A stretch of DNA of 64,000 nucleotides, from NCBI RefSeq assembly GCF_000689395.1, contig NZ_HG966617.1, positions 349,521 to 413,520 on the forward strand. The letters are read 5' to 3'. This document shows positions 4,098 through 37,869 of the stretch, piece after piece. A program made the translations under genes and the position numbers. Within the stretch, counting starts at the first letter, position 1; each line of letters begins with the position of its first letter. The notes beneath the pieces are model-generated. The model did no database searches. It was not told where the DNA came from and saw only the letters and a program-made list of their open reading frames with translations. The DNA is from Candidatus Phaeomarinobacter ectocarpi. GTDB lineage: Bacteria > Pseudomonadota > Alphaproteobacteria > CGMCC-115125.

Positions 4098-6017
4098 ATG
4101 CATCCACGTGTGTCACAGCTGGTGCAGCGGGCAACCAAGACGCCTGAACGCGACAAGACGTCGGGCGGGACCAATGGCCCGATTGATCCGGCACTTGCGG
4201 CGCGCGCCCGTACAGATTTGATCGACTTCCTGTATGCCCAGTCCGCTACCGGCCGTTTGACACCGGTATTCGTGTTTTGCATCTGTTTTGCGCTGTTTTT
4301 CCCTTATGTCTCGTGGTGGACATTGCCGTTGATCCTGGCATTCCAGGTCGGTGGAACTGCATTGGGTGAGGTACTCCGCCACCGCCACGCACGGCTGTCT
4401 CCTGATGCGGACCGGGAGCCGTGGGCCCGCGGCTACATGCTGGTAAGTGCGATCTGCGGCGTGAGCTGGGGGCTTGTCGGTGTGCTCTGGCTCATTCCAG
4501 AAAAACCAGAACTGCAGGTGGTGCTGGTTATCGTTCTCATTGCCGGCGTGACCGGTACGCTTGTTTCCCGATCGCCTCACCTCCCGTCCTTGTACGCATT
4601 CTCGGTCGCTCTTGGGGCGCCGTTCATTGGTGTGCAGCTCACCATGGGAACCTATGGAATTGCCATTGCCGTTCTGGCGCTGCTGTTCGCTTACAGTATG
4701 TTGGGTTGGGCAAGAGGGCTCAATCGGATGTATGTGCGTGAAGCAGCCGCCCGGCTTAGGTCAAATGATCTCGTACAGGCCCTGGAAAGTGCACGCGACG
4801 TGGCCGAAGCGCGTGCTGAGGAAGCCATAGAGGCGCGCCACGCTGCAGAGGCGGGTGCCCGGGCGAAGACGGAGTTTCTGTCAACCATCAGCCACGAAGT
4901 GCGCACACCGCTCAATGGTATTCAGGGCATGGCAGAGCTGATGCAGGACACGTCATTGTCGGATAGTCAGCAGGACTGCCTCACGACCATTCGTGAAAGT
5001 GCGGACAATCTCGGAATCATTCTCGATGACATCATCGATATGTCACTTCATGAGTCCGGCTCCGTCGACTATGACCGAGTGCCCTATGACCCGAGGGTTG
5101 TTGCGTCGCAGATCATCGGCATCCATGAGCCCGAGGCACGCCGCAAGGATATTCAGATCAACCTCGTGGTCCTGCCGGAGGTTTCGGCGCAGGTGGTTGG
5201 CGATGACAAACGGTGTCGTCAGGCGCTCCTCAATCTCGTTGGCAATGCTGTGAAGTTCACAGATAGTGGCAAAGTCTCAATCAAGCTGTCCATTGAATTG
5301 GCACCGGAACTGGGTGCGGACGTCCTGCGTTACGCGGTGCGGGATACAGGCATCGGTATTGCGCCTTCAGGCCTGCCCAACCTGTTTACAGAGTTCGTTC
5401 AGGTGGATCAGTCGACCACCCGGCGCCATGGCGGTCGGGGTCTTGGCCTCGCGCTGGTCAAACGTATTGTGGAGCAGATGGGCGGCACTGTGGGTGTGCG
5501 CAGCACCCTGGGCGAAGGCTCAGAATTCTGGTTCGACGTTCCCTTGTCAGAAAAAGCCAGTGCCGGCGGCGCCGACACAAAGGCTGAGGACAAGATGCGG
5601 ACGATCATCACGTCCAAAATCACCGATCTCGAAAACACCTTGGGGGATGCCAAGGCACATGAAATTGTTGAGGCGTGCCTGGATGCCGTGTGGACACTCG
5701 CGGAAGCCATCGAGTCCGCGAGGCGCATCGGTGATATTGAGGCCATCGGCCGAGCCGCCCATGACCTCAAGTCAACGGCTGGTAACATCGGCTTGAGTGC
5801 CCTTGAGGCACGCGCCGGTGCAATTGAAGCGGCCGTGCGCTGCAGCGATGGGGTAACCGCACTTGAGCAGGCGTCCTTGGTGGCGGGCGAAACGGCCATG
5901 GCGCAGACCGATCTGGTGGCCAGCCATCCGCAGATCGCCCATATACGCCCGATCCGCGGACGGTCAGCCGACGCGACGTCCAACAAGGGAGCGCAAACGA
6001 AGGCAAAAGCCTCGTAA
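4098..6017 (+). CDS. Membrane sensor histidine kinase with C-terminal HPt domain
   Basis: A two-component kinase. From the ATG at 4098 it has five or six hydrophobic segments, a short coiled coil rich in Ala/Glu/Arg, and then HisKA with the H-box STISHEVRTPLNG. The HATPase domain has an N-box (LLNLVGNAVKF), DTGIGIA and GGRGLGLALVK. The last roughly 130 residues form an HPt-like helical domain with AAHDLKSTAGNIG. There is no receiver domain between HATPase and HPt and no response regulator gene next to it, so the phosphorelay partner must be encoded elsewhere. Start choice: AGGG precedes ATG 4098; a GTG at 4026 preceded by AAAGGG is the alternative and would add 24 residues. Confidence 0.92.
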   Translation: MHPRVSQLVQRATKTPERDKTSGGTNGPIDPALAARARTDLIDFLYAQSATGRLTPVFVFCICFALFFPYVSWWTLPLILAFQVGGTALGEVLRHRHARLSPDADREPWARGYMLVSAICGVSWGLVGVLWLIPEKPELQVVLVIVLIAGVTGTLVSRSPHLPSLYAFSVALGAPFIGVQLTMGTYGIAIAVLALLFAYSMLGWARGLNRMYVREAAARLRSNDLVQALESARDVAEARAEEAIEARHAAEAGARAKTEFLSTISHEVRTPLNGIQGMAELMQDTSLSDSQQDCLTTIRESADNLGIILDDIIDMSLHESGSVDYDRVPYDPRVVASQIIGIHEPEARRKDIQINLVVLPEVSAQVVGDDKRCRQALLNLVGNAVKFTDSGKVSIKLSIELAPELGADVLRYAVRDTGIGIAPSGLPNLFTEFVQVDQSTTRRHGGRGLGLALVKRIVEQMGGTVGVRSTLGEGSEFWFDVPLSEKASAGGADTKAEDKMRTIITSKITDLENTLGDAKAHEIVEACLDAVWTLAEAIESARRIGDIEAIGRAAHDLKSTAGNIGLSALEARAGAIEAAVRCSDGVTALEQASLVAGETAMAQTDLVASHPQIAHIRPIRGRSADATSNKGAQTKAKAS

Positions 6018-6034: not shown

Positions 6035-9001
6035 ATGATGCAGGCACCCATGTCCAATTCGTCTGATTCATCACTGCCGCCCACAGGGTCCAGCGCAATT
6101 CAGCGCCGGGTGATGGTGCCTGATGCCTCCGCATTGGTGGCAACGCCGCGTGGCTCGATCGTGCTGACAACTGAAGGTGAAATTGTCGAGCTGACGAAAG
6201 CGCAGACAGCGGAACGGCTGAAACGTGAGCCGCATCTCATCGTGCACACCCGGTTCACGGCTAGACGCTTTGGCGTGCGTTTGGGTGACATGGCGCAGTC
6301 CTTTGATGCGCTGGAGCTGTTTGGCTTTGTCTACCCGGCACAGTTTTGCACACCGACACCGCTAGGGTTGGCGCGCACTCTGTCTTTGGTGGATCCAGCG
6401 CACACACCGGAACCGGAAGAGCTTGCCGTTGAATTGCTCACTGCCGCCCGCACCTTGGCCCAGACACTTGCCGATCAGGATTACCCGGGCCGTGATCAGG
6501 CCGCTGCGCTGGCCCGTACCATGGACAAAGCAGGGTGGGCGTGGGGGCCCGTCGTAACGGCTGCCCTCGGCGCCCCCAGATCCTATGCAGATACGGGATG
6601 GCTGACCGGCCTTGAAGCATGGAAGAAGTTACCCGAGTGGGAAGAGACGGCCGCGCGCGGCAAACCGGGCAATCGTCCCGTCGCACCGGAGGAGGCTGGT
6701 GGTCGTTTGCGCCAGCTCGTGGGCGCAGGGGCAGAAGATCGCCAGGGTCAAAAGGATTATGCCAGTGCCGCATCCCGCGCTTTCCTGCCGCGGGAGCCCG
6801 GAGAGCCGCATCTTGTGCTAGCGGAGGCTGGAACCGGAACCGGCAAGACACTGGGCTACATCGCGCCTGCAAGCCTGTGGGCCGAGCGCAATGATGCGCC
6901 GGTGTGGCTGTCGACCTACACCAAGAACCTGCAACGCCAGCTCGATCAGGAGCTCACCAAACTTTATCCGGACCCGGAGCAAAAATCATCCAAGGTTGTG
7001 CTGCGCAAAGGCCGCGAGAACTATCTGTGCCTGCTCAACTTTGAAGAAGGAGCCGGGCGGGCTGCAGCAGGCGTGGCAGCGCCAGGCGCACCGGGCAATC
7101 CGTCACTTATTCCTTTGGGCCTCATCGCGCGCTGGATACGGGCAACACGAGACGGCGACATGCTCGGCGGTGACTTTCCGTCCTGGCTGGTGCCCGGTGC
7201 CGCGCGCGCGGGCAATGAAGGTGGCATCGGCCTGACAGATCGGCGTGGTGAGTGCGTGTACTCCGCCTGTCCGCACTACAAGACCTGTTTCATTGAACGC
7301 GCCACACGCAAATCGCGTAACGCAGACATCGTGGTGGCAAACCATGCACTTGTGCTCACGCAGGCAGCCAATGCACATATTCCAGACGCGAGCGGTGAGC
7401 TGGTCCTCTCCGAAAATACCCAACGGGTTGTGTTTGACGAAGGGCATCACGTCTTCGATGCAGCCGACGGCGCTTTTTCCGTTGTCCTCTCCGGCTTTGA
7501 AACCGCTGAACTTCGCCGCTGGATTCGCGGCTCCGAGGCGCGACGCTCCCGCAGAACCCGTGGCCTGCGCGAGCGTGTCGGCGACCTGATCGAAGATATC
7601 GATGAAGGCCCAAAACTGCTGGACGAGGCTGAGAGCGCTGCGCGTGTGCTTGCAGGCCCGGGCTGGCAGACACGCATTCAGACTGAAGCAGCAAACACCC
7701 CGGCGGAACAGTTCCTGGCGCAGGTGCGGTTGCAGGTGCTGACGCGCAACACAAATGACACAACGCCGTTCTCGCTGGAAACACAGGTATCGCCGCCCAT
7801 TGAGGACCTGCCAGCGACAGCATCTCGTCTCTCCAATGGACTTGGAGAACTTGCACGACCGTTGCGGGCGATAGCGGGCCTGTTGTCCAAGCGTCTCCAG
7901 GAGGAAGGCGACAGCCTTGAACCCGCGACCCGTATGCGCATCGAGGCTGCCTACGGTGCCATCATCCGTCGCACTGGCGGCCTCATCCCGTCATGGATGG
8001 CAATGCTGCAGGGTATTGGACGCGAGCCGGACGAAGGCTTTGTTGAATGGTTTGAACTCGAGCGGTCAGATGGGCGTGAGCGCGACATCGCCATGCGCCG
8101 CCACTGGTTGGATCCAACGATACCGCTCGCAGAGGTCGTGTTGGACCGCGCACAGGGCGTTTTGGTGACCTCCGCTACCCTGAGAGATGAACCGGTCCTG
8201 CAAACCGCACCAGTGGAAGACGTTCTCGACCCATTCAGTGGCGCATCACGGGACATCCATGACATGCCCGACATGTCGGCTGGCCCCACCATGGCTGAGC
8301 CCCCTGAAGATGAAATGCACTGGGCCAGCGCGGAAGTACGCACGGGCGCCATGCATCTGGCGGCACCGGCGATCCGGGCCAGTTTTCCATCGCCGTTTGA
8401 CTACGCCAATCAGGTCCGCGTGTTTGCCGTCCATGAACTGGGCCGTGCCCGGCTGGATGTATTGGCAGGTGCCTACCGTACGCTGTTTGAAGCATCCGGC
8501 GGCGGTGCCCTCGGGATATTTACAGCCATTGCCCGGCTGCGCGCCGTCCATGAGCGGCTGCAGCCTGCCCTCGCCGCCAAAGGGCTTAACCTTTATGCCC
8601 AGCACGTGGATGCCATGGACGTGGGCACGTTGGTGGACATTTTCAAAAGCGAGCGTGACAGCTGTCTGCTGGGCACCGATGCAGTGCGCGACGGCGTGGA
8701 TGTTCCCGGTGATGCGCTGCGAATGCTTGTGTTTGATCGCGTGCCCTGGCCGCGCCCGGACATTCTCCACAAGGCCCGCCGCTCGGCGTTCGGCGGTGGG
8801 CGGTATGACGACATGATTGCGCGATTGCGCCTGCGTCAGGCTTTTGGCCGGCTGATCCGGTCTGCTGATGATCGCGGCGTTTTCACCATTCTGGCGCCGC
8901 TTCCTTCCAAACTGCTTGGCGCACTGCCCAAAGGCGTTGTTGTGGAGCGGGTGGGACTTGCGGAGGCAGCGCAGGCCAGCGCCGACTTCTTAAATCAGTA
9001 G
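6035..9001 (+). CDS. ATP-dependent DNA helicase, DinG/XPD-like with Fe-S cysteines
   Basis: A 988-residue superfamily 2 helicase. Walker A is AEAGTGTGKT (about residues 265-275). A four-cysteine cluster region includes ECVYSACPHYKTCF (about 405-420), as in the Fe-S domain of DinG/XPD enzymes. The DEAH-like box reads DEGH (about 468), and the C-terminal motifs are GTDAVRDGVDVPGD and RQAFGRLIRS. These enzymes unwind 5'-tailed DNA, R-loops and similar structures. The first 200 residues form an extra domain (PDASALVATPRG, FDALELFGFVYPA) that resembles a degenerate nuclease-like module common in alphaproteobacterial DinG homologues. ATG 6050 is an alternative start. Confidence 0.9.
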   Translation: MMQAPMSNSSDSSLPPTGSSAIQRRVMVPDASALVATPRGSIVLTTEGEIVELTKAQTAERLKREPHLIVHTRFTARRFGVRLGDMAQSFDALELFGFVYPAQFCTPTPLGLARTLSLVDPAHTPEPEELAVELLTAARTLAQTLADQDYPGRDQAAALARTMDKAGWAWGPVVTAALGAPRSYADTGWLTGLEAWKKLPEWEETAARGKPGNRPVAPEEAGGRLRQLVGAGAEDRQGQKDYASAASRAFLPREPGEPHLVLAEAGTGTGKTLGYIAPASLWAERNDAPVWLSTYTKNLQRQLDQELTKLYPDPEQKSSKVVLRKGRENYLCLLNFEEGAGRAAAGVAAPGAPGNPSLIPLGLIARWIRATRDGDMLGGDFPSWLVPGAARAGNEGGIGLTDRRGECVYSACPHYKTCFIERATRKSRNADIVVANHALVLTQAANAHIPDASGELVLSENTQRVVFDEGHHVFDAADGAFSVVLSGFETAELRRWIRGSEARRSRRTRGLRERVGDLIEDIDEGPKLLDEAESAARVLAGPGWQTRIQTEAANTPAEQFLAQVRLQVLTRNTNDTTPFSLETQVSPPIEDLPATASRLSNGLGELARPLRAIAGLLSKRLQEEGDSLEPATRMRIEAAYGAIIRRTGGLIPSWMAMLQGIGREPDEGFVEWFELERSDGRERDIAMRRHWLDPTIPLAEVVLDRAQGVLVTSATLRDEPVLQTAPVEDVLDPFSGASRDIHDMPDMSAGPTMAEPPEDEMHWASAEVRTGAMHLAAPAIRASFPSPFDYANQVRVFAVHELGRARLDVLAGAYRTLFEASGGGALGIFTAIARLRAVHERLQPALAAKGLNLYAQHVDAMDVGTLVDIFKSERDSCLLGTDAVRDGVDVPGDALRMLVFDRVPWPRPDILHKARRSAFGGGRYDDMIARLRLRQAFGRLIRSADDRGVFTILAPLPSKLLGALPKGVVVERVGLAEAAQASADFLNQ

Positions 9002-31852: not shown

Positions 31853-34117
31853 ATGTCAGACTACGAAAATTTTGGATTTGAAGTTGATGGGGACGGCATT
31901 GCCGTTGCCACATGGGATATGCCCAACCGCTCTATGAACGTTCTGAGCCAGTCCTCCATGAAGGACCTGTCAGACATCATTGAAAAAGTCGCCTCCGACG
32001 ACGCCATCAAGGGCCTCGTCATCACGTCAGGCAAGGGCGCGTTTTGTGCCGGTGCTGATCTGTCCATGATGAGCTCCAACTCAGGTGGCGGCTCAGGCGG
32101 CTCCGAGCAGGACAAGGTGAAGGCGCTGTATGAAAACAACCTCGCTTTCAACATGCAGCTGCGCCGCATGGAAAGCTGCGGCAAGCCGATTGCAGCAGCC
32201 ATTCCCGGCACGGCACTTGGCGGTGGCCTTGAAGTAACGCTCGCCTGCCACGCCCGCTTTGTGGCGGACAACCCGCGCGCCCAGCTTGGCCTGCCCGAAA
32301 GCAAGGTCGGTCTTCTGCCCGGCGGTGGCGGCACACAGCGTCTGCCCCGCATGATCGGTTCAGCAGGCGCGCTGCCGCTCATTCTGCAGGGCACAGCACT
32401 GTCTCCTGAAAAGGCCGCAGCTGCTGGCATCGTCAACAAGGTGGTTGCCGGTGACAAGCTGGTGGACGAAGCCAAGGCCTGGATCAAGGAAGGTCTGGCC
32501 GGCGAAACCATCAAGCTCGGCAAGCGCGGACCCGAAGTCCTCGCAGCCGCACTGCAGCCATGGGATCGTCCCAAATACCGCATTCCCGGTGGCGGCCCGC
32601 ACGACAAGAACGGTGGCTCGACCTTCACCATGGCCAACGCCATGCTGAACAAGACCACCCACCAGAACTACCCGGCTCAGCAGTACATTCTGGCAGCCGT
32701 GTATGAAGGTGTTCAGGTGCCCATCGAAGCCGGTCTGCGGATTGAAAGCCGCTACATGACCAAGCTGATGATGGACCCGCGCTCCAAGGCGATGATCCGC
32801 TCGCTCTTCCTCTCCATGCAGGAACTCTCCAAGGGCGCGCGTCGTCCACAGGGCGTTGACAAGTGGGAAGTGAAGAAGCTCGGCATCCTGGGTGCCGGCA
32901 TGATGGGCGCAGGCATTGCCTATGTGTCCGCCAAGGCGGGCATGGACGTGGTGCTGCTCGACCGTGATCAGGCCGATGCCGATAAGGGCAAGTCCTACTC
33001 TGAAGCTCTGCTCGACAAGGCCATCTCCCGCGGCAAGTCCACGGACGAAAAGAAGGCGGCCCTGCTCGGCAAGATCAAAGCCACAACCGACTATGACGAT
33101 CTGGAAGGCTGCGACCTCGTGATCGAGGCCGTGTTCGAAGATCGCGGCATCAAGGCCGACGTCACCAAGAAGGCCGAACCGAAGATCGCCAAGGGCGGCA
33201 TCTACGGCTCCAACACCTCGACCCTGCCGATCACCGGCCTGGCCGAAGCCTACTCCAAGCCTGCTGAATTCATCGGCATCCACTTCTTCTCCCCTGTGGA
33301 CAAGATGCAGCTGGTGGAAATCATCATGGGCGAGCAGACCAATGATGAGACCCTCGCCAAGGCCATGGACTATGTGGCGCAGATCAAGAAGACGCCGATT
33401 GTCGTCAATGACAGCCGCGGCTTCTACACGTCACGCTGCTTCGGCACCTATGTGAGCGAAGGCATTGCCATGCTGGCGGAAGGCATCGAGCCTGCCATCA
33501 TCGAGAATGTCGGCAAGATGACCGGCATGCCCATGCCGCCTCTGGCCCTCAACGACGAAGTCTCTCTCGACCTTGGTTACAAGGTGCGTCAGCAGACCAA
33601 GAAGGATCTGGGCGACAAATACGTCGAAGGTCCCGCTGACAAGATCGTCGAAGAGATGGTTGTCACCCATGGCCGTCTTGGCAAGAAAGTCGGCAAGGGC
33701 TTCTACGATTGGCCGGCGGAAAAAGGCGGTAACAAGCGCCTGTGGCCGGACCTGCATAAGGTCGTGGAACACACCAAGACCATCGATGACGTGGACACGG
33801 ACGAGTTGAAAAACCGCTTCCTGTTCATTCAGGCACTTGAGGCTGCAAGGTGCTTTGAAGAAGAAGTGGTGACAGACGTCCGCGACGCAGACGTCGGCGC
33901 CATCCTCGGCTGGGGCTACGCGCCGTGGTCAGGCGGACCGCTCTCGCTCATCGACATGACGGGCACAGACAAGTTCGTCGCTGAATGCGACAAGCTCGCC
34001 CAGAAATACGGCGACCGCTTCAAGCCCAACGCCCTCCTGCGCGACATGGCCAGCAAGGGCGACACCTTCTACAGCCGCTTCAACCCGGCCGCGAAGGTAG
34101 CCGCCGCTGCTGAATAA
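31853..34117 (+). CDS. FadJ-type bifunctional enoyl-CoA hydratase / 3-hydroxyacyl-CoA dehydrogenase
   Basis: A 754-residue fusion. The N-terminal crotonase domain has AFCAGADLSM and LGLPESKVGLLPGGGGTQRLPR (both catalytic Glu positions appear kept). The NAD-binding HAD domain starts near residue 340 with GILGAGMMGAGIAY, then CDLVIEAVFED, IGIHFFSPVDKMQLVEI (catalytic His region) and a duplicated C-terminal helical domain. It performs steps two and three of beta-oxidation. The C-terminal end is Ala-rich. Last gene of the operon; a strong hairpin follows at 34128. Confidence 0.95.
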   Translation: MSDYENFGFEVDGDGIAVATWDMPNRSMNVLSQSSMKDLSDIIEKVASDDAIKGLVITSGKGAFCAGADLSMMSSNSGGGSGGSEQDKVKALYENNLAFNMQLRRMESCGKPIAAAIPGTALGGGLEVTLACHARFVADNPRAQLGLPESKVGLLPGGGGTQRLPRMIGSAGALPLILQGTALSPEKAAAAGIVNKVVAGDKLVDEAKAWIKEGLAGETIKLGKRGPEVLAAALQPWDRPKYRIPGGGPHDKNGGSTFTMANAMLNKTTHQNYPAQQYILAAVYEGVQVPIEAGLRIESRYMTKLMMDPRSKAMIRSLFLSMQELSKGARRPQGVDKWEVKKLGILGAGMMGAGIAYVSAKAGMDVVLLDRDQADADKGKSYSEALLDKAISRGKSTDEKKAALLGKIKATTDYDDLEGCDLVIEAVFEDRGIKADVTKKAEPKIAKGGIYGSNTSTLPITGLAEAYSKPAEFIGIHFFSPVDKMQLVEIIMGEQTNDETLAKAMDYVAQIKKTPIVVNDSRGFYTSRCFGTYVSEGIAMLAEGIEPAIIENVGKMTGMPMPPLALNDEVSLDLGYKVRQQTKKDLGDKYVEGPADKIVEEMVVTHGRLGKKVGKGFYDWPAEKGGNKRLWPDLHKVVEHTKTIDDVDTDELKNRFLFIQALEAARCFEEEVVTDVRDADVGAILGWGYAPWSGGPLSLIDMTGTDKFVAECDKLAQKYGDRFKPNALLRDMASKGDTFYSRFNPAAKVAAAAE

Positions 34118-34127
34118 ATGGCGCCAA

Positions 34128-34160
34128 GTACGGTCGGGAATTCTCGATTCCCGACCGTAC
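34128..34160. terminator. Strong hairpin after the beta-oxidation operon
   Basis: Two 14-base arms, GTACGGTCGGGAAT and its exact complement, around a TCTCG loop. It lies 11 bp after the fadJ-like stop and before the AT-rich island. There is no T-run, yet the stem is strong enough to end or protect the operon's message. It also marks the left limit of the island. Confidence 0.55.
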
Positions 34161-34204
34161 ATTAAGGTGTTAGAAATAGGAAAATTAACCTATCATTAGA
34201 TACT

Positions 34205-34210
34205 TATAAT
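34205..34210 (+). promoter_or_regulatory. TATAAT -10 element of the AT-rich island
   Basis: A perfect consensus -10 hexamer in AT-rich DNA 42 bp before the first island gene. The -35 region is poor. It gives the three island genes their own promoter, separate from the upstream operon. Confidence 0.4.
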
Positions 34211-34251
34211 TGTACTAGATTGACGAATCATAGGGATGGCGGGAACACAAA

Positions 34252-34707
34252 ATGGCGCATTGCCAAATGCGATCGGATACAACGCACAATATATATGGCC
34301 TACGTGCTGCGGCGCTGGACGCAGCCTTGGCCTTTGACAGCGCACTAAATGATAAGCCAATTGATTTAGACGCAATTGAGCGCTTCGGAACTCTAATTTC
34401 TGCATACACGAAATCGAGCGCTGATCAACCGGATGGGTCTGGAGTGAAAGACCCTTTGTCACTCAGCGTTCTTGATCATGCAATTGGTGAGTCATTGGGA
34501 GTGGAGTTATCAACGCTTGACCAACTCTCACGAGAAATCAAAAAATACATTGAAAGGCTATCTAAACATGGCCTTGATCACGACAATAGAATGACAGAGG
34601 GGCGAAACTTTTGCATAGCAGTTCATAAAGCACTAATGTCTGACTACAGTCCAATTGACTCAAAGCAGACAACCCGTGGACGGCAAAACATCACAACATG
34701 GTTCTGA
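34252..34707 (+). CDS. Unknown helical protein, first gene of the AT-rich island
   Basis: A 151-residue protein I do not recognise. It is mostly helical (ALDAALAFDSALNDKPIDLDAIERF, VELSTLDQLSREIKKYIERLSKH), with no signal peptide, no membrane helix and no obvious catalytic motif. Codons are AT-rich, unlike the flanking operon. Its 3' end overlaps the start region of the HEXXH gene by 32 to 53 bases. ATG 34252 is upstream of an alternative ATG at 34267. Overlap and shared composition suggest that it works with the next two genes. Confidence 0.65.
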   Translation: MAHCQMRSDTTHNIYGLRAAALDAALAFDSALNDKPIDLDAIERFGTLISAYTKSSADQPDGSGVKDPLSLSVLDHAIGESLGVELSTLDQLSREIKKYIERLSKHGLDHDNRMTEGRNFCIAVHKALMSDYSPIDSKQTTRGRQNITTWF

Positions 34708-35905
34708 ATACCGACTTCAGAATTTCAGGCAGCAAATACGGCGTTTGAAATCTGGGGAGTATGCTTATCACGACTCCGAAGATGCTCTTCGTCAACTTGA
34801 TGATATTGCGTCGAGTTTTGAAGAGCGGCTGATAAAAAGCCGTGGTGCATTTCCAGATATTAGAAAGCGCCAAGAAGCTGAAGCAAATTCGTTCATCAAC
34901 CTATGTCATCCAATCCTTGGAATAATACTCAGATCTTCAAATGTACGGAATGCATTCGAAGTATACGAGCCTCTCAAAAAAATAATTGAAAGTTATCTAG
35001 GTGAGGATAGTCATCTAATTCTTTCATCCGAATGGGATTATACGCCTTTTACCTGGCCCATGGGACTCATTGAGCTCCCCAAGTACGTAATCATCGGACT
35101 TCCTGCGTCAGAATCAGACAATCCGCTTTTGTTGCCGCTCGCAGGTCATGAGCTTGGACATTCTGTCTGGCCGCAAAAAGGCCTTCATGGGCACTTTCTG
35201 AATATACTCAAAGACAAAGTGGTCGAATACTATCATGAAAATTGGGACAATGATGTTTCAGGTCTGCCCAAAATAAATTTGGCGCAGCTTGAAGAGGATA
35301 TGTTTTCACGACGAATATGGATCAATTCACTGGCGTGGTCGCTTAGACAGTCAGAAGAGTCGTTTTGTGATGCTCTCGGCGTACGGATATTTGGGAGAAG
35401 TTATCTTCATGCTTTCTCATATCTCTTGGCGCCAAGTCTCGGTGCCCGTAGCACCGACTACCCGTCGGCAAGACTCAGATCGCGCATAATTGAGTCTGCA
35501 ATGGCGAGGCTAAGTGGGTCTGATGAGAGTTGGTTCGGCGCGCAATTTGAGTCTCAGGACTCAAACGAAATTGACCCATTGGCGAGTTTTCAATTGGCTG
35601 CGGCTGATTACGCGACTGATCAGATATTTGAGCAACTGATCGATAAGGCTTTTGAGGTTTCAAGCTCCAGTGGAGTTAACTCGCCAGATAATACTGAGGT
35701 CGCCTCGATGTTGGAGTGTTTTAAAAGTGGTATTCCCAAAGATGGTATTGGAGACCTACAGGACATAGTACAAGCCGGTTGGGAGCTCGCTGATTGGTTC
35801 CACAAAGAAGAAATTGTTGATCAACGCAAGAACTTGGAGCAAGTTGGAGAGTTGATTTTAAAGACCATTGAAGTCTCTGAATTTCATCGGAGAATTTCGA
35901 ATTGA
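34655..35905 (+). CDS. HEXXH metalloprotein (gluzincin-like), island gene 2
   Basis: A 416-residue soluble protein. Residues 160-171 read LPLAGHELGHSV, with the zinc motif HELGH at 165-169. About 66 residues later SEESFCDALG (233-242) gives a plausible third ligand, Glu235, in the E-x3-D pattern of gluzincins, followed by YPSARLRSR. So it is likely a zinc protease or a protease-like protein. There is no in-frame ATG before residue 136: the start is TTG 34655 or GTG 34676, which leaves it overlapping gene 1. The stop shares the bases TTGA with the next start. Substrate unknown; a family match could not be made. Confidence 0.75.
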   Translation: MTQSRQPVDGKTSQHGSEYRLQNFRQQIRRLKSGEYAYHDSEDALRQLDDIASSFEERLIKSRGAFPDIRKRQEAEANSFINLCHPILGIILRSSNVRNAFEVYEPLKKIIESYLGEDSHLILSSEWDYTPFTWPMGLIELPKYVIIGLPASESDNPLLLPLAGHELGHSVWPQKGLHGHFLNILKDKVVEYYHENWDNDVSGLPKINLAQLEEDMFSRRIWINSLAWSLRQSEESFCDALGVRIFGRSYLHAFSYLLAPSLGARSTDYPSARLRSRIIESAMARLSGSDESWFGAQFESQDSNEIDPLASFQLAAADYATDQIFEQLIDKAFEVSSSSGVNSPDNTEVASMLECFKSGIPKDGIGDLQDIVQAGWELADWFHKEEIVDQRKNLEQVGELILKTIEVSEFHRRISN

Positions 35906-36537
35906 TAATAAGTTCCAATGATCTTCGTGCTCGCTTCGAGCGTGATGCTGATGATCCGAAGAAAATTTGTCTTGTTCCCGGGATCTCTGATGACAATGGA
36001 AATTTTGATCAGTCTACCGGCGTTGACTTGCGCCTGGGTCGTTGGTTTCTAACACTCAGACAATCACGGGTTTCCAAGTTGCCGCTCAAGCAGAGCTACG
36101 AGAGCCTCGACAAATTCGCGCGATCAGGACGCGAGTACTTTGTTCCATTTGGCAAGTCATTCATCTTGCATCCTGGCAGGTTCGTTCTGGGCATCACACT
36201 TGAGTGGATGAGGCTGCCATCAGATGTTGCTGCCTATGTGACGGGTAAGTCGTCACTAGGTCGGAGTGGTCTAATAATTGAGACGGCTTCCGGAATCCAG
36301 AGTGGCTTCTCAGGTTGCTTAGCGTTGGAAATGACAAATGTTGGAGAGATACCGCTCGAAATCTATCCGGGTATGAAAATCTGCCAATTGTTTTTCCACG
36401 CCACATCTGATGAGTCAGTCTACGACGGGTCATTTGGTGGCACCAGGAAGCCGCGTTTGAGGCCTATTTCGCCAGATTCCATTTTAGAGTCTTTACGAGA
36501 GAAACAATCCCCAGCAGCACCATTGTTGCGATTCTAA
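35902..36537 (+). CDS. dCTP deaminase / dUTPase-fold protein, island gene 3
   Basis: A 211-residue protein of the trimeric Dcd/dUTPase fold. It starts MIISSNDLRA, as Dcd enzymes do, from a TTG that overlaps the previous stop (TTGA). The core GKSSLGRSGL (Ser117, Ser118, Arg121) and LALEMTNVG (Glu143) keep residues used for the deamination chemistry, followed by PGMKICQLFF. The usual I-D-P-G-F/W turn is I-Q-S-G-F here (Gln133). It may be an active dCTP deaminase, a dUTPase-like enzyme, or a nucleotide sensor. It is not obviously the housekeeping dcd, given the island location. Confidence 0.82.
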   Translation: MIISSNDLRARFERDADDPKKICLVPGISDDNGNFDQSTGVDLRLGRWFLTLRQSRVSKLPLKQSYESLDKFARSGREYFVPFGKSFILHPGRFVLGITLEWMRLPSDVAAYVTGKSSLGRSGLIIETASGIQSGFSGCLALEMTNVGEIPLEIYPGMKICQLFFHATSDESVYDGSFGGTRKPRLRPISPDSILESLREKQSPAAPLLRF

Positions 36538-36624
36538 GCTGCACGGTTTTGCTGCTGACCTCAGTTCAAATTATCTTGTAGCAGCCTTGCAATTTCTCTC
36601 ATCATCAAGCTTGGAAGCGAACAA

Positions 36625-37017
36625 ATGACACTCGAACGCGGGCTGGCGATCTACACGCTCATCAGTGCAACGCTGCACTTCTCGCTGGAGACGTATCACT
36701 TCGTTCAGTACGGCTCGTTTCTGCCGATGCTGATTGTGGACTACATCGCCATCTCTCTTTTTGTGTTTGCGTCCTATGTGGCGTTGAGCAATCGCTACGG
36801 CAGTGCTGCTGGGCTGCTGTGCGGCGCGTGGGGCTTTGCGTTTTGCCTCAACTACCGGGCGTTCTTCTGGCGGTATCAGGAGCTCGTGAATGGCAGCGCG
36901 CAGAGTGCTGAGCCGATGGAGGTTGTGGCGTCCATTCTCGGTGTTACGCTCATCATTTCCGGCAGCGTGTTCCTGCTGACACTGTGGATGGCATTCCCAC
37001 GCCGCGCGAAAGCCTGA
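36625..37017 (+). CDS. Small four-TM membrane protein, unknown
   Basis: A 130-residue polytopic protein with four hydrophobic stretches (YTLISATLHFSLETYHF, MLIVDYIAISLFVFASYVAL, AAGLLCGAWGFAFCLNYRAFFW, GVTLIISGSVFLLTLWMAF) and a basic C-terminus. No family recognised. It follows the AT-rich island by 87 bp and has G+C nearer the chromosome average, so it is probably not part of the island. The next small membrane gene starts 11 bp later. Confidence 0.65.
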   Translation: MTLERGLAIYTLISATLHFSLETYHFVQYGSFLPMLIVDYIAISLFVFASYVALSNRYGSAAGLLCGAWGFAFCLNYRAFFWRYQELVNGSAQSAEPMEVVASILGVTLIISGSVFLLTLWMAFPRRAKA

Positions 37018-37028
37018 TTGCGTGATCA

Positions 37029-37337
37029 ATGACTCTGTTTTTGCACTACTACGGGCTTTATGCCGTCAGATTTTCTCACTGGATTAGTGAGGATGCCTTG
37101 AGAGGTGCCATATTCTATGTGTCGGCCGTCTTGTACTTCCCCTTTGTTTGGCTCGTCACGAAGGAAATGTCAGAGGCAGTCCATGTTGTTGCAATGGTTG
37201 TATCCGCCTTCATAGCGGTCTTTCTGCTTTTGTATTTACACTTCACATTTGAGACCAAGCGTAAATCTGCCGAGATGGCGGCCTTTTTGAAAAAGCAAGG
37301 CCGCGGAAGATTTTCACGTAAGCGTTCCAACAAATAA
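37029..37337 (+). CDS. Small membrane protein, unknown
   Basis: A 102-residue protein with two hydrophobic helices (AIFYVSAVLYFPFVWLV, VHVVAMVVSAFIAVFLLLYL) and a strongly basic tail (KKQGRGRFSRKRSNK). No family recognised, and its G+C is lower than that of its neighbours. Ribosome binding is weak (upstream TGATCA), and the start lies 11 bp after the previous gene. A hairpin at 37372 lies beyond its stop. Confidence 0.5.
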   Translation: MTLFLHYYGLYAVRFSHWISEDALRGAIFYVSAVLYFPFVWLVTKEMSEAVHVVAMVVSAFIAVFLLLYLHFTFETKRKSAEMAAFLKKQGRGRFSRKRSNK

Positions 37338-37371
37338 GCACGGCAGAAGTGGAAGGCATCCTCCCGCCTTG

Positions 37372-37394
37372 CCCCTCCGGTCAAGCCGGAGGGG
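37372..37394. terminator. GC-rich hairpin between convergent genes
   Basis: CCCCTCCGG and CCGGAGGGG pair over 9 bp around TCAAG. It lies after the stop of the small membrane gene and just beyond the stop of the convergent PH-domain gene. It can act in both directions, although no T-run is present. Confidence 0.45.
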
Positions 37395-37407
37395 GGCCGG
37401 GGGTGTG

Positions 37408-37869
37408 TCAGGCCGCCGCCACCGGCACCAGCCTGTCTTCTTCTGTCAGCAACAACGGCTCTTCGATGGAGACGTCCAGGCTCTCGATCAGTGCCTTGCG
37501 GAACTCGATGGGCTTTGCAATCGCGGGCAGACCGAAGTCGCCAATGTCGACGCCGCGCACATTGAGTGTGCCGTAGCCAAGGAGACGTCCCAGCAGGCTT
37601 TGCTCCAGCGTAATGGCGTGGATGCGCGCTGCGTTGAACTCGTCCGTGCGCCGCGAGATGAAGCCGCGCTTGTAAATGAAGCGTCTGTTGGTGACGACCA
37701 GTTCCGTCGTCCATTTGCGCATCTGGCGGGAGAAAAACACAGCGACGCCGATCAGCAGCCAACCGGCCAGCAAAAGCCAGGCCCAGGAGATGAAACTATA
37801 CGTCCAGTGAAACCGCCCCCTTGCCAGAATGACTTCCCGGGGCGCAAGCGTAAGTGAAACGTAAGACAT
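37408..37869 (-). CDS. PH domain-containing membrane protein (bPH2/YdbS type)
   Basis: A 153-residue protein with a PH-like domain. It begins MSYVSLTLAPREVILARGRFHWTYSF, has two adjacent hydrophobic helices (AWLLLAGWLLIGVAVFF), and then the bPH2 core ELVVTNRRFIYKRGFISRRTDEFNAARIHAITLEQSLLGRLLGYGTLNVRGV, typical of YdbS/YdbT-like proteins. Function is unproven, perhaps in membrane stress or secretion. Start at 37869 is set by a strong AGGAGGG 7 bases upstream. Two genes converge at its 3' end. Confidence 0.85.
   Translation of the reverse strand: MSYVSLTLAPREVILARGRFHWTYSFISWAWLLLAGWLLIGVAVFFSRQMRKWTTELVVTNRRFIYKRGFISRRTDEFNAARIHAITLEQSLLGRLLGYGTLNVRGVDIGDFGLPAIAKPIEFRKALIESLDVSIEEPLLLTEEDRLVPVAAA

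Follow-up and report, generated by a model that had tools for sequence, protein, structure and literature searches.

The low-G+C trio and its setting in the window

The DNA analysed here is a 64,000-nucleotide stretch (hereafter the window) of the complete 3.4-Mb chromosome of Candidatus Phaeomarinobacter ectocarpi (contig NZ_HG966617.1, positions 349,521 to 413,520), and this report concerns three overlapping, co-oriented genes that occupy 2.3 kb within it. They encode a small helical protein, a gluzincin-like protein and a dCTP deaminase of the DUT fold, and are referred to together as the trio.

34252-34707, plus strand: gene 1, small helical protein; ATG start, 151 amino acids (aa); conserved FC pair at residues 120-121
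34655-35905, plus strand: gene 2, gluzincin-like protein; TTG start, 416 aa; HExGH at residues 165-169 and ExxxD at 235-239
35902-36537, plus strand: gene 3, DUT-fold dCTP deaminase; TTG start, 211 aa; Ser117, Arg121 and Glu143, with Gln133 at the position of the motif-3 Asp

An earlier note, made from the letters alone, had described the three genes as overlapping and co-oriented with TTG or GTG starts for the second and third, and the coordinates of the open reading frames (ORFs) bear this out: genes 1 and 2 overlap by 53 bases, genes 2 and 3 by 4 bases, and both downstream genes begin with TTG, an in-frame GTG at 34676 being an alternative start for gene 2. The G+C content of about 43% sampled in that note is close to the 0.42-0.49 measured inside the trio in 600-base windows. 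The corresponding values are 0.51-0.53 across the borders and 0.53-0.65 in the rest of the 64 kb, so that the low G+C is local to the trio and not part of a larger low region. Per-gene G+C is 0.458, 0.448 and 0.484 for genes 1, 2 and 3, and the comparison with the surroundings that the note had proposed sets their third-position G+C of 0.41, 0.41 and 0.49 against 0.71-0.76 in seven nearby genes (overall G+C 0.56-0.62). An eighth nearby gene, a 102-aa ORF at 37029-37337, is likewise low (G+C 0.456, third-position 0.553).

The trio had also been credited with its own TATAAT. These letters exist at 34205-34210, upstream of gene 1, but promoter-like sites between 34050 and 36700 number 4 against 4.1 expected by chance and none of them lies upstream of gene 1; a private promoter is therefore not supported.

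The DUT-fold deaminase

The product of gene 3 matches Pfam PF22769 (E=1e-30, 107.3 bits against a cut-off of 27) and NCBIfam TIGR02274 (115.2 bits, cut-off 92.8), both above the curated cut-offs, in agreement with the dCTP deaminase fold first proposed for it. Eight residues (Ser117, Arg121, Thr128, Ala129, Gly131, Glu143, Cys161 and Gln162) are invariant in all 28 aligned trio deaminases, and Ser117, Arg121 and Glu143 align to Ser111, Arg115 and Glu138 of E. coli Dcd, the deamination residues of that enzyme. The conserved Glu argues that dCTP deamination would be retained in gene 3.

Housekeeping Dcd proteins, as represented by E. coli (1xs1) and M. tuberculosis (2qxx), share with gene 3 the fold family and the Ser/Arg/Glu active-site residues. 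Unlike them, gene 3 sits behind a gluzincin gene and has His or Gln in place of the motif-3 Asp; it is also one residue shorter than E. coli Dcd before the Thr-Ala pair. The motif-3 position, residue 133, is His in 25 of the 28 trio proteins and Gln in the other three, the window protein among them, whereas it is Asp in the solved deaminases used for comparison and in all seven non-trio relatives from viral contigs with a readable motif 3 (two further relatives lacked one). According to PMC4827122, exchange of the third-motif Asp for Asn in human dUTPase abolished turnover and left binding unaffected. Given this precedent and the replaced Asp, the trio deaminase is probably incapable of dUTP hydrolysis.

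Since the host chromosome carries its own two-domain dcd and another single-domain match that may be dut, gene 3 appears to be surplus to metabolism. The earlier note had kept it apart from the anti-phage deaminases of the cytidine-deaminase fold, a distinction that holds, as the trio has no match to PF00383 or to PADLOC.

The gluzincin-like and small helical proteins

Genes 1 and 2 have no credible family in Pfam, NCBIfam, PADLOC or PHROGs. The HEXXH motif that had marked gene 2 as gluzincin-like is indeed present as LAGHELGH at residues 162-169, and G164, H165, E166, G168, H169, E235 and D239 are invariant in all 30 aligned homologues. HExGH followed by ExxxD is the gluzincin pattern, in which Glu235 would serve as third zinc ligand as in M48 peptidases and thermolysin. 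No Pfam family was found for gene 2 up to E=1, NCBIfam gave only SagB at E 0.2, far below its cut-off, and searches of PDB sequences with gene-2 profiles gave no credible match, the best being to a designed protein at E 0.21.

An AlphaFold2 model of gene 2 built on the 30-sequence alignment (predicted local distance difference test, pLDDT, 87.5; predicted template modelling score 0.89) places Glu235 and Asp239 on a long helix of residues 216-246. The best Foldseek match in PDB was an unrelated protein at E 1.1. VIA-align returned the ZMPSTE24/Ste24p entries 6bh8, 2ypt, 4aw6 and 4il3 at Z 5.6-6.2 (root-mean-square deviation 6.2-6.8), values that are common by chance, unrelated helical entries reaching 7.8. 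The four alignments cover 185-200 residues and span both motif helices, and the likeness was given weight only for the recurrence of a single HExxH...ExxxD family, whose four entries have the longest alignments. A gluzincin of Ste24/M48-like architecture is thus a possible identity for the modelled protein; it has the HELGH...ExxxD arrangement in common with the M48/Ste24-ZMPSTE24 gluzincins and is set apart from them by the low structural Z and by the lack of a Pfam family.

Gene 1 is modelled as a five-helix bundle (pLDDT 76.7). Ala25 is conserved in all 31 aligned proteins, and Phe120 and Cys121 in 30 each. Foldseek against PDB gave no informative fold for it (best E 0.14), and the helical bundles returned by VIA-align (FliS, Z 8.5) may reflect merely a common helix arrangement. 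A HEPN toxin was among the Foldseek matches (probability 0.82, E 0.35), and this reading was dropped because only 9 of the 31 proteins have a His at the position of the candidate RxnH motif.

Linkage and co-divergence of the three genes

Genome contigs scanned with a three-sequence profile yielded 34 loci. A deaminase gene lies directly behind gene 2 in 29 of them (one, L034, with unread bases); in three others (L025, L028 and L035) the deaminase start is present, but the gene breaks off through a stop or divergence near the contig end, and the remaining two contigs end 109 and 2 bases past the gene-2 ORF, before any deaminase. Frame breaks interrupt gene 2 in L030, L033, L048 and L050. Directly upstream of gene 2 there is an ORF of 136-228 aa in 33 of the 34 loci, and in the one left, L033, a frame translation shows it; a two-sequence gene-1 profile finds matches at E<0.01 in 28 of the 34, the three identical Rhizobium ones by construction; at this threshold the upstream ORFs of L033, L037, L046, L050, L051 and L053 had no match.

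The families were aligned with 30 of 34 distinct proteins for gene 2 (the four with frame breaks left out), 28 of 30 for the deaminase (leaving out the partial L028 and, for its unread bases, L034, with six proteins trimmed to the homologous start) and 31 of 32 for gene 1 (leaving out L043). Mean identity within the families is 21%, 36% and 49% for genes 1, 2 and 3, gene 1 being the most divergent. The pairwise-distance matrices of the three families correlate (rho 0.697, 0.682 and 0.722, matched by 0 of 1000 label permutations in each case), indicating that the genes moved and diverged together. The trio is a tightly linked unit with congruent divergence, and the proposal that its genes behave as one horizontally acquired unit is upheld by their joint recurrence in unrelated bacteria.

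Upstream of four trios lies a further gene of 112-116 aa (L032:9120-9458, L034:9104-9454, L041:9148-9489 and L042:9136-9483), which is absent from the window and was rejected as a core member. Its product shows homology to the first protein of a second low-G+C DUT-fold cassette in the genome of the window (E 6e-13 for L034), and this homology links the two kinds of cassette. The second cassette, on the minus strand at 3922-5755 of L073 (genome positions 3238500-3247500), encodes that first 134-aa protein (5351-5755), a 185-aa protein and a 249-aa DCD-like protein; the last, judged by eye, seems to carry a membrane segment at its C-terminus and lacks the deamination Glu at the expected place. 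No counterpart of the cassette was found among the PF22769 matches of the congeners G001 and G003. Similar proteins occur on 23 plasmid records, 8 of them over at least 80% of the length, and one stands beside ImmA/IrrE and thymidylate synthase genes.

Distribution and mobile carriage

Judged by record title, the 34 loci come from at least seven phyla, the titles naming alphaproteobacteria, deltaproteobacteria/Desulfobacterales, Planctomycetota, Verrucomicrobia with Opitutales and Kiritimatiellae, Hydrogenedentota, Armatimonadetes, Parcubacteria, 'Methylacidiphilales' and unclassified bacteria. A tblastn search with gene 2 matched 10 of 72,556 plasmid records, all of them Rhizobium conjugative plasmids of one lineage, and in both of those inspected all three genes recur in unchanged order. 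The Rhizobium proteins of L003 are identical to those of the window at 24% (gene 1), 38% (gene 2) and 51% (gene 3). On these plasmids a Fic gene lies upstream of the trio, and subtilase-trypsin, trypsin and AAA genes and an integrase lie downstream. The run behind the trio at L002:14034-22275 (subtilase-trypsin, trypsin-like and AAA ATPase) is likely a defence or conflict operon.

An 11.7-kb IMG/VR record also bears the trio at its end, together with genes for a portal, a head protease, a capsid protein, two connectors, an HNH protein and the small and large terminase. Of the ten ORFs scanned in this record, none was recognised as a tail gene; the record resembles a capsid-forming satellite and may be a fragment. 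In all, parts of the trio lie on three viral contigs: L004/L019 holds genes 2 and 3 and, where the contig begins or ends, the last part of gene 1; L064, an IMG/VR contig that appears prophage-like by eye, holds gene 1, gene 3 and between them gene 2 with a frame break; and L065 is described below. The triplet, for which the earlier note had proposed a search in unrelated genomes, thus recurs in unrelated bacteria, on plasmids and on viral contigs. Gene 2 is absent from the congeners G001, G002 (81% complete) and G003, and has no match in the other 384 of 385 genomes of the class or the other 397 of 398 genomes of the phylum. Phage records searched by tblastn with gene 2 of the window and of L047 gave no match, nor did E. 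coli genomes in a DNA similarity search.

The chromosomal slot in congeners

The trio fills most of a slot whose content varies within the genus.

34118-36624: variable slot, bounded on the left by the end of the fadJ-like gene and on the right by the 130-aa membrane gene
31853-34117: beta-oxidation fadJ-like gene, left flank (named by eye)
36625-37017: 130-aa membrane gene, right flank (named by eye)
34128-34160: hairpin at the left border of the slot, after the fadJ-like gene; 14-bp perfect inverted repeat with a 5-base loop and no T run

Congener G003 has the same flanks as the window, at 94% and 88-92% DNA identity, and its slot holds a 516-aa gene on the opposite strand (L017:838-2385) in DNA of 0.46-0.51 G+C. 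The encoded protein matches the PADLOC dCTPase profile (E=1.7e-157, the AvcD kind) and has the zinc deaminase domain PF00383; the gene is absent from the genome of the window and from G001. In G001 a Gp49/helix-turn-helix (HTH) toxin-antitoxin pair and a Hypoth_Ymh protein lie beside the fadJ-like gene, and the right border differs, since no match to the 130-aa gene exists in this genome. In the fragmented G002 assembly the contig stops short of the slot. As the contents differ among congeners, the slot is an exchangeable site in the genus, occupied once by a proven defence family.

The trio is comparable with anti-phage dCTP deaminases of the AvcD type (PADLOC dCTPase) in its predicted dCTP substrate, in the expected attack on the nucleotide pool and in the use of the same slot by a congener. 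It differs from them in that the G003 protein has a cytidine-deaminase zinc domain, while the trio combines the DUT fold with two protein partners; AvcD has an RNA antitoxin, as stated in PMC10511110, and no PADLOC profile matches the trio.

A tRNA-linked insertion was rejected, there being no tRNA in the window, and the repeats around the trio are only short ones of chance size. Beyond the right flank, 37018-37409 is a second small stretch (102-aa ORF, G+C 0.46) with no match beside the slot in G003, and at about 37373-37412 there is a short, REP-like sequence with several dispersed matches in G001.

Defence genes around the trio and known systems

By raw count, at least 6 of the 32 non-identical genome loci, and L064 as well, have a defence-type gene no more than two genes away from the trio.

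L023: type IV restriction/GmrSD-like gene
L045: type III restriction gene
L051: type I specificity gene
L031: caspase-domain gene
L034 and Rhizobium: subtilase genes
L064: CHAT gene

These counts are a lower bound, drawn from the first 25 of 297 families and from 130 of 135 flank ORFs (five ORFs of at least 892 aa, one each in L039 and L040 and three in L043, were left out), with the Rhizobium duplicates L022 and L027 excluded. Homologues of the trio are not confined to conserved housekeeping positions, being found on plasmids, on viral contigs and in several cases beside defence genes.

HEXXH protease-like proteins are part of Rosmerta-type and other ImmA/IrrE defence systems, a likeness to gene 2; unlike these, gene 2 has no match to PADLOC RmrA and the trio has no HTH partner by Pfam. 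PMC12255303 describes a protective defence island in which a gene for a predicted M48 metallopeptidase stands with type I restriction and DarTG, a precedent for gene 2; the passages concerned mention no dCTP deaminase and do not state the peptidase's own role. Defence by nucleotide depletion is itself known, AvcD depleting dC nucleotides upon infection according to PMC10511110. The literature searched, largely outside subscription journals and bioRxiv, on dCTP deaminases and dUTPase-like proteins in connection with defence or proteases listed no defence unit of a DUT-fold deaminase and an HEXXH protein. PADLOC 2.0.0 contains no defence unit that joins a gluzincin and a DUT-fold deaminase to a small helical protein, and such a unit is probably undescribed.

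A possible nucleotide-depleting immune module

The island is most likely a horizontally moved three-gene module with an anti-phage role, either abortive or replication-arresting. Because its genes travel together and sit where a congener keeps an anti-phage enzyme, the trio is probably an undescribed phage-defence system, and from its context we hold a defence function as such, whatever the roles of the single proteins, to be quite probable. The more specific reading that we favour, by analogy and with a probability of roughly 0.45, is that of a mobile immune module in which gene 3 would be the dCTP-consuming effector and the gluzincin the switch. Gene 3 would deaminate dCTP, starving or poisoning phage DNA synthesis, and since the aspartate for dUTP hydrolysis is gone the product would be dUTP, not dUMP. 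This would be the most economical role for gene 3, because the deamination residues are kept, the hydrolysis residue is lost and the trio alternates with a defence gene. The gluzincin would, once infection is sensed, cut a partner protein, most simply the helical protein of gene 1, which would otherwise hold the system off; gene 1, the most divergent of the three, would be the natural candidate for an inhibitor or sensor.

Several observations weigh against this reading. The roles of effector and switch are assigned by analogy and could be permuted, and loss of the motif-3 Asp might also impair deamination. No trio protein has a match in PADLOC 2.0.0 (2023) at E up to 10, and 14 of 20 flank proteins picked as promising had none either. 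Some loci have housekeeping neighbours, such as transketolase in L038, isopropylmalate synthase in L048, an RNA methyltransferase in L024 and FecR in L032. The non-alphaproteobacterial records are all metagenome assemblies, except for the unclassified 'Bacterium MnTg02', so that part of the host range rests on binning, errors in which could inflate it. Linkage on viral contigs is not absolute: besides the frame break in gene 2 of L064, viral contig L065 holds, at 7574-8273, a gene-1 ORF and a gene-2 remnant with no deaminase found, and represents either a trio in decay or a variant that lacks gene 3.

The same module might work with its roles reversed, the DUT-fold protein being a sensor of the nucleotide pool (dCTP or dTTP), the gluzincin an effector or the start of a cascade and the small protein an adaptor, and this has a lesser though real chance of being right. 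A protein that binds without turnover, as in the human dUTPase variant (PMC4827122), is what replacement of the Asp of the relatives by His (25) or Gln (3) in all 28 trio deaminases could mean, and according to PMC5593958 phage dUTPases can serve as signalling switches through binding of the Stl repressor. Mere binding, however, would not need the invariant Ser, Arg and Glu of deamination. Genes for caspase-fold or subtilase proteins directly behind the trio, which favour this reading, occur in four loci only (subtilase genes in Rhizobium and L034, the caspase-domain gene in L031 and the CHAT gene in L064), and the window trio has no adjacent second protease gene. A fuller version, which we think rather unlikely, would have the DUT-fold protein, its dUTP hydrolysis lost, read a phage-disturbed dCTP/dTTP state and release the Ste24-like gluzincin by way of the gene-1 protein, in some lineages as a cascade with a neighbouring caspase-fold protein or subtilase.

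Explanations in which the trio serves no specific anti-phage purpose fare less well. It is improbable that the trio is a toxin-antitoxin-like or element-stabilising addiction module: the small first gene, the overlapping starts, the carriage on plasmids and a viral contig and the toxin-antitoxin genes adjoining the fadJ-like gene in a congener would all suit one, but the trio also lies on chromosomes, as in the window, a defence gene fills the slot in another congener, and three genes with two conserved enzyme active sites are unusual for simple addiction. Even less probable is a metabolic or stress module, that is, a spare pyrimidine-nucleotide enzyme with a maturation protease for DNA damage or mobile-element replication. 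Such a role would be in keeping with the DUT-fold dCTP deaminases found on viral contigs and with deaminase family matches in 13 of 14 well-known control genomes; the host, however, already has a two-domain dcd, and neither the patchy distribution, nor the motif-3 change, nor the alternation with a defence gene would be expected of it.

If the favoured reading, with gene 3 as effector and the gluzincin as switch, is right, a second enzyme fold, unrelated to the first, has been put to use in nucleotide-pool defence and is coupled there to proteolysis, and the alternation of both dCTP deaminase folds in one chromosomal slot of sister species would make immunity of this kind both convergent and exchangeable. 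Beyond the window, active sites can be read in another 27 deaminases and another 29 gene-2 proteins, and the reading would provide a first hypothesis for this family of hitherto unassigned HEXXH proteins.

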